Assembly: GCF_000763575.1 (NCBI RefSeq)
Contig: NZ_CP009170.1
Span: 1,429,501-1,493,500, forward strand
Source: Thermoanaerobacter kivui
GTDB lineage: Bacteria; Bacillota; Thermoanaerobacteria; Thermoanaerobacterales; Thermoanaerobacteraceae
DNA length: 64,000 nucleotides
Direction: 5' to 3'
This document shows positions 41,180 to 57,693 of the stretch, piece after piece (the stretch's first letter is position 1; the number at the start of each line of letters is the position of its first letter). The notes beneath the pieces were generated by a model that was not told where the DNA came from, ran no database searches, and worked only from the letters and a program-made list of their open reading frames with translations. A program made the position numbers and the translations under genes.

Positions 41180-42037
41180 TCAACTCAAAATTTCAGGTGC
41201 AATCAAAGCTGCATAATCTCCATATTTGTTGAGTTTGCTTTGGTATACTCCTATAATTACATCCCTTATCTCTTTTTTTTCTTCTTCTATCACCAATTTA
41301 TCAGGCCTAAATCCTACCATCATTCCTTTGTTTTGGCCAACTGACATAAAAGGAATCAATCTTAATCTATTAATCCACTTTTCTTCTTGAAACATTTCAG
41401 AGACTTTATCAAAATCTCCTATATCATCCTCAGATAAATTTCCTAATGTTTTAGGAAGTAAATCTTTTATTGCTCTAAATTCAACAACTACCACAGGCAA
41501 CTTAGTCAATGGGTCATACAGCCTATTTCCTGTGTCAAGTAGTGCTTTAATCTGCGCATGATTTTCTAATACCTCTATTCTGATGTTGTAAATCAATTTG
41601 TCATTCCTCGATTTCCTGACTATATACTCCCAATTAGTGTAAAGCAGCAAAATCGCCATTAAAAATCCCATCACTATGACATTTAAATCAAATTTCACCA
41701 TATATAAAAGAGCAAAGATTGCTCCTCCTATTAAGAAAGATATCATGTAAAATACAGCTAAAACTCTTAAAAATTCTTTTAATGTTTTTGGATTAAATGC
41801 CATATATATTATTAAGAAGGATAAAACAATTTTAGCTGTAACTGAATAAATGATTTTATAGGGCAACAAAAAAAATAGCACGACGTATGAAGCGCCTACT
41901 GATGCCCCTAAAAAAAGTTTTATGTAATTAGTTGGTCTTTTAGAAAATTTTTTAGTCAAAATGAGGATGACGTAGTTAATTATTAAGTTTTCAAAGAAAA
42001 TAACATCTAAGTACATTTGGACCATCCCCGGGGACAT
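41180..42037 (-). CDS. spoIIGA: Sigma-E processing peptidase SpoIIGA
   Basis: Protein of 285 residues. Five N-terminal transmembrane helices (about residues 8-155) anchor it in the sporulation septum, and a C-terminal aspartic-protease-like domain has the catalytic motif [14 protein letters not shown] near residue 170. It cleaves pro-sigma-E after a forespore signal. ATG 42037 has AAGGATG upstream; internal ATGs at 42025 and 42016 are alternatives. Ends 13 bases before sigE. Confidence 0.95.
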
Positions 42038-42084
42038 ATTTCATCCTTATACAATGTATATTCACCAACAATTATTTTATTCAT

Positions 42085-55162: not shown

Positions 55163-57238
55163 TTAATTTTCCTTTGGCCTAAACTCCACTTCAATAGTTT
55201 CTCCTTTTTTTACCACAGTACCTTCTAAAGGAACTTGTCGTACCGCAAATCCGTTGCCTTTTATCTTTATTTTAAGTCCTAATGAATTCAATAATTCCGC
55301 TGCTTCTTTTACGCTTTTACCTGTCAAGTCAGGAACAATGACATTTTCTTCCCCATAGTCATTTAAATACAAAATGACTGTTGTATTTTCTTCAACTATC
55401 GCACCCGGTTTAGGCATTTGGTCAAAAACGGTATTCCCTCTGCCTTCCACAATAAATCTAAGTTTATTAGAAATCAGCACATTTTGTGCTTCATAAAGTT
55501 TCATATTCCTCACATTAGGCACTTCTACCAAAGGAGCCTTTTCTATTCCTCTTGGCTTAACCTCCAAATATCTTAAAGTATCCTCTAAAATGCTTTTTAC
55601 TACAGGAGCCGCTAACTGACTACCAAAGTGGGATTCTGGATTGTTTGGCTCATCTATTACCACCAATGCTATGACTTTTGGGTCATCAGCTGGTGCAAAG
55701 CCCAAAAAAGAGGCTACATATTTGCCAGGCATGTATTTTTCAGTTGTACCAGTTTTTCCTGCTACATCAAAACCTTCTATATAACCTGTTCTACCTGTTC
55801 CTTCTGAAACAACGCTTTTTAATATCTCTCTCATGGTAGCAGAAGTTTTCTCTGAAATTACCTGCCTTACCACTTTTGGTTTAAATTCTTTTATTACATT
55901 TCCGCTTGAATCTACAATTGATTTGACAATGAGAGGTTGCATCAATTTTCCACCGTTGGCTATAGCAGATACAGCCGTAATCATCTGCAAAGGAGTCACC
56001 GCAATACCTTGACCAAAAGAGTTAGTTGCAAGCTCTACAGGACCTATATTGCTCTCTGGCATCACAAGACCGGGAGCTTCTCCCGGAAGAAGTATCCCTG
56101 TTTTTTGTCCAAATCCAAATGCGTGTATGTATTTATAAAGCTTTTCTACTCCCAACCTTTGACTTAAAGTCACAAAAACCACGTTACAAGAATTTTGTAC
56201 TCCTTGAACAAAGGTCTCACTTCCGTGGGTAGCCCAGCAATTTATCCTATGCCCTGCCACCATTATGTAACCTGGGTCATAAAACTGTTCATCCAGCCTT
56301 ACTACTCCTTCCTCCAACGCTGCAGAAGCAGTGATTGTTTTAAATACAGAACCTGGTTCATAGGAATCTGATATGGCTTTATTTCTCCATAATTTAAACC
56401 ATTCTTCCTCTTGCCCTGCAAAAGGGTCATTTGGGTCATAATTAGGTCTATTAGCTAAGGCAAGTATTTCCCCCGTATTAGGGTCCATAACAATAGCTAC
56501 TACCCCTTTAGAAGGCTTTGATTGAACCATCGCTTGGTTAAGAGCTTTTTCAGTAAAATGCTGAATCGTCTCATCAATTGTAAGAACTACGTTATACCCT
56601 TGCATCGGTTCACAATACTCTTCTTCTCCAATATTCATTTTTCTTCCTATCGCGTCAATTGGCGTTGAAATTCTTCCCGGAATACCTCTTAAGAAATTGT
56701 CAAAGACCAATTCAATGCCGTCTAAGCCTTGATTATCAATTCCAGTAAATCCTAATACGTGACAAGCTAAATTTCTGTCTGGATAATATCTCTTCATATC
56801 TTCAGAAACAATTATTCCTTCTATGTTCAATTTCCTTATCTCATTCGCTTTGTCATCATCAACTTTTTTAGCAATCAGCACTTCTTGCATATTTTTGTTT
56901 GAAATCTTTTTTACTACCTCATCTTTGTCCAAATTTAATATTCTTGACAACGCTTCAGCTACCATTTCTTTTTGAGATTCTTTTATCTCTTTAGAAATAA
57001 CACTTATTTTATTTGCACTTACATTTTCTGCAAGCACTTTTCCATTTCTATCAAATATGATTCCCCTTTTAGGAGTCACTGATACGTCTAAAGTCCATTG
57101 AGGAAGTGCCATTTTCTGATACTCTTCACTTTTGACAATTTGTATCCAAAAAAGCCGAACTGCAAGCCCAAATATCGCTACTGAAGATAAAAAAAGCAAA
57201 AAAAGGATTCTTCTTTTTACAGATATGTTCGGATATAT
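55163..57238 (-). CDS. spoVD: SpoVD-type class B penicillin-binding protein, apparent AUA start
   Basis: About 691 residues. N-terminal membrane helix, dimerisation domain, transpeptidase with SxxK (GSVFKTITAS), SxN (SCN in QNSCNVVFV) and KTG (AGKTGTTEKY), then two PASTA domains (about 575-630 and 635-688), as in SpoVD. The first canonical in-frame start (TTG 57199) lies inside the membrane helix and lacks a Shine-Dalgarno. The frame stays open upstream to an in-frame TAA at 57241. It encodes YPNISVKRRILFLLFLS, matching the SpoVD N-terminus, and the only codon spaced correctly (7 bases) from GGAGGG is ATA at 57238. Identity firm; start inferred. Confidence 0.9.
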   Translation of the reverse strand: MYPNISVKRRILFLLFLSSVAIFGLAVRLFWIQIVKSEEYQKMALPQWTLDVSVTPKRGIIFDRNGKVLAENVSANKISVISKEIKESQKEMVAEALSRILNLDKDEVVKKISNKNMQEVLIAKKVDDDKANEIRKLNIEGIIVSEDMKRYYPDRNLACHVLGFTGIDNQGLDGIELVFDNFLRGIPGRISTPIDAIGRKMNIGEEEYCEPMQGYNVVLTIDETIQHFTEKALNQAMVQSKPSKGVVAIVMDPNTGEILALANRPNYDPNDPFAGQEEEWFKLWRNKAISDSYEPGSVFKTITASAALEEGVVRLDEQFYDPGYIMVAGHRINCWATHGSETFVQGVQNSCNVVFVTLSQRLGVEKLYKYIHAFGFGQKTGILLPGEAPGLVMPESNIGPVELATNSFGQGIAVTPLQMITAVSAIANGGKLMQPLIVKSIVDSSGNVIKEFKPKVVRQVISEKTSATMREILKSVVSEGTGRTGYIEGFDVAGKTGTTEKYMPGKYVASFLGFAPADDPKVIALVVIDEPNNPESHFGSQLAAPVVKSILEDTLRYLEVKPRGIEKAPLVEVPNVRNMKLYEAQNVLISNKLRFIVEGRGNTVFDQMPKPGAIVEENTTVILYLNDYGEENVIVPDLTGKSVKEAAELLNSLGLKIKIKGNGFAVRQVPLEGTVVKKGETIEVEFRPKEN

Positions 57239-57249
57239 TTATATCCCTC

Positions 57250-57693
57250 CTATCTGTTTAAAACCCCCAATATCCTCATGAAAAAGTTACTCCTTTCAAC
57301 ATTTTTATCTTCAGGTTTTTGATTTTTAGCGACAGTATCTATTTTCCCAACATTTACATACACAACTTGGCTTTCATCCGGCTGTTGCATTCCCAATTTA
57401 TCTTTCGCGATTTTTTCAATTCTAACAGGATCGCTCATAGCAGCAATTTTGGCTTTTAACTGTTGATTCAAATTTTCAGTATATCGTATATTTTCCTCCA
57501 TTTTATCAAGTGCAATTGACTTCTGATAAATTACCGCATATCTAAAAAGTATCATAACACTTAAAGAACCTACAAAAAGTATTAATGCCAAATTCTTTAA
57601 CTTTTTCTTCTTTTTAGATTTTTTGACTTGTCCCGTTTTCTCTGAGGTATACGGGGGATATTCATAATTATAATCTCTTTGTGCTACTATCAA
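57250..57693 (-). CDS. ftsL: FtsL-like divisome protein
   Basis: Protein of 147 residues. A lysine-rich cytoplasmic tail, one transmembrane helix (about 34-53) and an extracytoplasmic leucine-zipper segment (about 60-95) match FtsL/septum-formation-initiator proteins. TTG start follows GGAGGTAG. Position between rsmH and the class B PBP is the canonical ftsL slot. Sequence conservation in this family is low. Confidence 0.85.
   Translation of the reverse strand: MIVAQRDYNYEYPPYTSEKTGQVKKSKKKKKLKNLALILFVGSLSVMILFRYAVIYQKSIALDKMEENIRYTENLNQQLKAKIAAMSDPVRIEKIAKDKLGMQQPDESQVVYVNVGKIDTVAKNQKPEDKNVERSNFFMRILGVLNR

Follow-up and report, generated by a model that had tools for sequence, protein, structure and literature searches.

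A probable AUA start codon, conserved across a bacterial family, in the spoVD-type gene of Thermoanaerobacter kivui

The minus strand of the 64,000-nucleotide stretch of DNA analysed here (the window; positions 1,429,501–1,493,500 of Thermoanaerobacter kivui DSM 2030) carries a dcw cluster in the order mraZ, mraW, ftsL, a spoVD-type gene, murE, murF, mraY and murD. The genes ftsL and spoVD were named by profile match, and the remaining loci are taken to be mraZ, mraW, murE, murF, mraY and murD because we recognized their translations. The genome was reported at 2.397 Mbp (PMC4320612), and the assembly used here is a single contig of 2,397,824 bp (PMC11895483).

The protein encoded between ftsL and murE scores 746 bits against TIGR02214, the NCBIfam equivalog for SpoVD (cut-off, 688 bits), which upholds the identification as spoVD made in a first-pass annotation of this DNA. 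It contains the Pfam domains PF03717, PF00905 and PF03793, corresponding to a dimerization domain, a transpeptidase domain and two PASTA domains, and a basic KRR tail precedes its predicted membrane helix. The term ‘sporulation PBP’ is a family name that comes with TIGR02214. Because T. kivui reportedly does not produce mature spores (PMC12056078), the protein could act in septation rather than in sporulation, and the fact that both the gene and its AUA codon are intact in this organism hints at a vegetative, septal role. The spoVD frame of T. thermocopriae is interrupted near codon 255–258 (loci L042, L025 and L037); this assembly is a draft, so the break may reflect either a sequencing error or decay. 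The upstream gene, ftsL, starts with TTG (57693) in all five genomes compared, and the neighbouring septal genes ftsL and spoVD thus each have a conserved weak start. The features of the locus are collected in Table 1.

Table 1. Features around the spoVD start, in window coordinates.
Feature	Position	Strand	Remarks
spoVD-type class B PBP, 691 aa	55163..57238	−	Between ftsL and murE; TIGR02214; PF03717, PF00905, PF03793
ftsL	57250..57693	−	TIGR02209 over cut-off; TTG start; stop TAG 57252–57250 overlaps the spoVD SD
Predicted N-terminal membrane helix, codons 11–29	57152..57208	−	Hydropathy maximum here in 20/20 genomes
Probable spoVD start codon, AUA	57236..57238	−	TAA in frame directly upstream; ATA in 20/20 genomes
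In-frame TAA closing the upstream frame	57239..57241	−	Directly before ATA
Shine–Dalgarno (SD) sequence AGGAGG	57246..57251	−	7 nt before AUA; AGGRGG in 20/20
TTG codon 14, first canonical in-frame codon, rejected as start	57197..57199	−	TTA in 9/19; inside helix
Candidate RNA hairpin around the SD and AUA, suggestive only	57219..57257	−	Folding, shuffling, consensus

On the minus strand, the start region consists of aaacagaTAGGAGGGATATAA followed directly by ATA TAT CCG AAC ATA TCT GTA AAA AGA AGA ATC CTT TTT TTG, so that AGGAGG (57251–57246) is separated by GATATAA from the ATA at 57238. Because TAA stands directly before this ATA, a canonical start further upstream is impossible in T. kivui. 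The first-pass annotation had proposed initiation at AUA from the TAA at 57241–57239, the ATA at 57238 and the first canonical codon at TTG 57199 (codon 14), and the sequence agrees with it on each. The GGAGGG that it had taken as the ribosome-binding site occupies 57250–57245 with 6 nt between it and ATA, and the core AGGAGG has the 7-nt spacer.

We compared the spoVD start across 20 genomes from three genera, comprising T. kivui and 19 relatives, with Thermoanaerobacter wiegelii, T. thermocopriae and Caldanaerobacter subterraneus among the named loci. The first-pass annotation had raised the question of whether ATA is conserved in orthologues or replaced there by ATG; it is conserved, with codon 1 being ATA in all 20 genomes. 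The motif AGGRGG precedes it with a 7–8-nt spacer in every genome, as does the FtsL stop TAG, which lies at −14 or −15 from the ATA and overlaps the SD, and a stop stands in frame directly before the ATA in 15 of the 20. Codons 2, 4, 5 and 7, by contrast with codon 1, vary freely. The alignment has 22 columns in which isoleucine is invariant, and codon 1 is the only one encoded by a single codon, the other 21 mixing ATA, ATT and ATC. By parsimony on the gene tree, each of the other fully aligned invariant isoleucine columns has undergone 1–4 third-position changes (mean, 2.0). For codon 1, the chance of zero changes is P(0) of about 0.14 in this synonymous test alone, and the invariance is therefore supporting evidence and not proof, being weak by itself.

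From these alignments, the best reading is that the AUA start is ancestral to the family and has been kept by selection. The AUA could instead be a real but neutral start that drift fixed in the ancestor of the family and that the strong SD and reinitiation from ftsL made tolerable. Such a history would suit an AT-rich genome (35% G+C; PMC4320612) and a gene that is intact even in T. kivui, which lacks mature spores (PMC12056078). We consider it unlikely, however, because a single transition from ATA to ATG would restore a strong start and yet is seen in none of the 20 genomes, whereas synonymous isoleucine codons elsewhere in spoVD change freely.

Other genes of the window, the closest paralogue and more distant orthologues provide points of comparison. 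A survey of other AUA starts covered the window and the syntenic stretches of four relatives (40 window genes). Thirty of the 40 share an SD and an NTG start in all genomes compared, and spoVD alone, among the exceptions listed, has an invariant ATA without a shared NTG; the others listed have a shared or nearby NTG and involve a poor SD, alignment gaps or a broken frame in one relative. The gene at 41183–42040 was a further exception in the survey, in addition to those listed. Separately, a murA-like gene in one relative (G011; L095–L098) has no canonical start in frame and a nearby ATG in another frame, the offset appearing as if caused by a small length change.

A second spoVD-like PBP occurs across the family genomes; in T. 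kivui it is a 559-aa open frame without a PASTA match region (G000:C1:1694177–1695901), and the open frame is shorter in a few genomes. This paralogue starts with TTG, GTG or ATG in all 18 genomes examined. A candidate AUA start in the T. kivui copy (AGGGGTTAGA-ATA-AAA-TTG) was rejected: its ATA is not conserved, and a conserved TTG/GTG/ATG follows two codons on. The orthologue of spoVD itself starts with GTG or TTG in each of four outgroup genomes from sister families of the same order. Across the rest of the phylum we sampled 60 spoVD-type genes, of which 59 carry a canonical in-frame start where one is expected; an SD precedes 56 of these starts, and the start of the sixtieth gene was not placed. 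The infC start, in turn, is an invariant ATT in all 20 family genomes, behind AGGAGGTG or a near-identical sequence, so the family does make use of near-cognate initiation in the classical IF3 case. In T. kivui, infC lies at about 1,523,570 (G000:C1; L068); across the 20 genomes (L067–L086), its ATT stands behind AGGAGGTG(C/T)GTATTT.

Translation might alternatively begin at TTG 57199, leaving the upstream codons untranslated. This is the first canonical codon in frame in the window, and a gene caller limited to ATG, GTG and TTG would pick it. We regard such a start as very improbable. As the first-pass annotation had argued, it would be a poor one, having no SD and lying inside the predicted membrane helix, so that the basic tail would be missing. 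Moreover, 9 of the 19 relatives have TTA in place of TTG at codon 14, and this position mostly lacks an SD. The 13 codons that precede it had been read as the N terminus of SpoVD, and they are indeed conserved as protein, with the segment K(R/K)RILF, and match the outgroup N termini.

Nor do the relatives offer a better-placed canonical codon. No in-frame NTG lies between the upstream stop and the ATA in any of the 20 genomes. The first in-frame NTG is codon 34 in two relatives (G005 and G007) and codon 43 in five (G008, G009, G001, G002 and G004), and a start at either position would remove the membrane anchor; in two further genomes (G006 and G017) the first 80 codons contain none. For eight of nine congeners, the next downstream canonical start is past the membrane helix or absent. 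Where an in-frame NTG does occur among the family genomes, the first one falls within or beyond the membrane helix, with one exception: in G011, TTG is already found at codon 2, with a spacing from the SD that would allow initiation, and this genome could therefore start there.

The proximity of the FtsL stop, just 14–15 nt upstream of spoVD and in the same frame in several genomes, could be taken to suggest an FtsL–SpoVD fusion produced by stop readthrough or ribosomal frameshift. We rejected this as extremely improbable, because the relative frame varies among genomes with the position of the stop (−14 or −15) and because the same-frame genomes usually have a second stop directly before the ATA; the strong SD between the two genes also argues against it. 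Finally, a sequencing error for ATG at 57238 can be ruled out, because ONT and Illumina resequencing of a DSM 2030 isolate, for which every small difference was listed (PMC11895483), lists no difference near genome position 1,486,738 (window position 57238), so that the ATG envisaged in the first-pass annotation was not seen, and because the identical codon recurs in the 19 other assemblies, 20 independent assemblies in all.

The ATA in 20 of 20 genomes, the lack of a usable canonical start, the conserved SD and the NTG starts of the paralogue and outgroups thus strongly support, at the level of sequence comparison, initiation of spoVD at AUA 57238 and not at TTG 57199. We further think it highly likely that this AUA is a real, selected near-cognate start of the infC/ccpN type that probably acts as a translational brake. 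Under this model, the initiator fMet-tRNA would read AUA as a near-cognate codon with a third-position mismatch. Third-position mismatches at initiation are normally rejected by IF3. The strong SD (AGGAGG, 7 nt) would hold the 30S subunit at the AUA, and 30S subunits set free at the ftsL stop, which overlaps the SD, probably assist initiation through translational coupling. Together, the SD and the ftsL-derived subunits may offset the mismatch to give a low, steady output of SpoVD, with initiation expected to be inefficient and sensitive to IF3. A fixed brake of this kind most likely sets a low transpeptidase dose relative to the operon neighbours; its surroundings are division genes expressed constitutively, and making more transpeptidase than FtsL and its partners can match may be harmful.

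Reporter data from Staphylococcus aureus give an idea of the possible magnitude: in poor medium the AUA starts of ccpN and citZ yield about 10% of the AUG output, and in rich medium the ccpN start reaches as much as 30% (PMC13009471). By analogy, lowered or conditional translation of spoVD is plausible, and weakness of a start does not by itself imply regulation. The papers searched contained neither ribosome profiling nor N-terminal peptides nor reporter assays for the species considered here. Published genetic tools for T. kivui, as cited in PMC11895483, make the proposed role of AUA directly testable.

The start region may also be structured. In T. kivui, the 70 nt around the spoVD start fold with an energy of −17.6 kcal/mol (z-score, −3.6), which is lower than at any of the 51 SD-bearing starts in the window. 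Congeners have a similar stem, and members of the second genus (g2) have a different one (UGCUGGUGA/UCACCAAGCA) over the same place, so that the two main genera of the family would use different base pairs. Shuffle z-scores in the relatives are mostly near −2, with some near 0 or above, and the hairpin is moderate in most relatives and weak or not significant in five (G003, G004, G005, G011 and G013). The consensus fold in the genus has 13 pairs without compensatory change, and compensatory change is found at one pair in the g2/g3 set and at none in g1. Because it is weak or not significant in those five relatives, we do not claim a hairpin over the SD and AUA, and treat it as a lead that is only suggestive. 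More speculatively, the AUA, the overlap of the ftsL stop with the SD, and a hairpin pairing the end of ftsL with the opening codons of spoVD might form one dosage device that ties the septal transpeptidase to FtsL output in this thermophilic family; we put this forward tentatively and think it rather doubtful. In such a device, only ribosomes that finish ftsL would open the spoVD site, and the status of IF3 or the growth state would set the rate at which AUA is accepted.

To our knowledge, few bacterial genes (infC and ccpN) are on record as having a chromosomal AUA start kept by selection. A conserved near-cognate start in spoVD or any other dcw gene is not reported in the papers searched, and spoVD would add a membrane enzyme of the central division and cell-wall operon to this list. 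The persistence of AUA throughout the family suggests that near-cognate starts can set enzyme dose. There is also a practical consequence for annotation, as gene callers limited to ATG, GTG and TTG will miss SpoVD or shorten it so that the membrane anchor is cut.

Comparison with known systems places the spoVD start among a small set of relatives. In S. aureus, ribosome profiling has demonstrated conserved AUA starts for infC and ccpN (PMC13009471). The infC gene, with its AUU or AUA start, resembles spoVD in combining a lineage-conserved near-cognate AUN codon with a strong SD; however, infC encodes IF3, the very factor that proofreads the infC start codon, and SpoVD cannot autoregulate in this way. 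The ccpN gene of S. aureus and Bacillus subtilis (PMC13009471) is similar in having a conserved AUA behind a strong, well-spaced SD, likewise in Bacillota, but encodes a transcription repressor instead of a membrane cell-wall enzyme, and its AUA was demonstrated by ribosome profiling and reporters, whereas that of spoVD is predicted by sequence comparison. Escherichia coli pcnB offers a further parallel, through its citation in PMC13009471 (Binns and Masters 2002), as an AUU start that limits enzyme dose, although the codon, gene and phylum all differ. Compared with other SpoVD and dcw class B PBPs (TIGR02214), the T. kivui gene has the same domains, operon place and N-terminal membrane anchor, and it is the start codon that sets it apart, spoVD-type genes elsewhere in the phylum having a canonical start in 59 of the 60 sampled. 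Conserved near-cognate starts are thus already known, and the spoVD case is notable for its age, spanning a whole family, and for its place.
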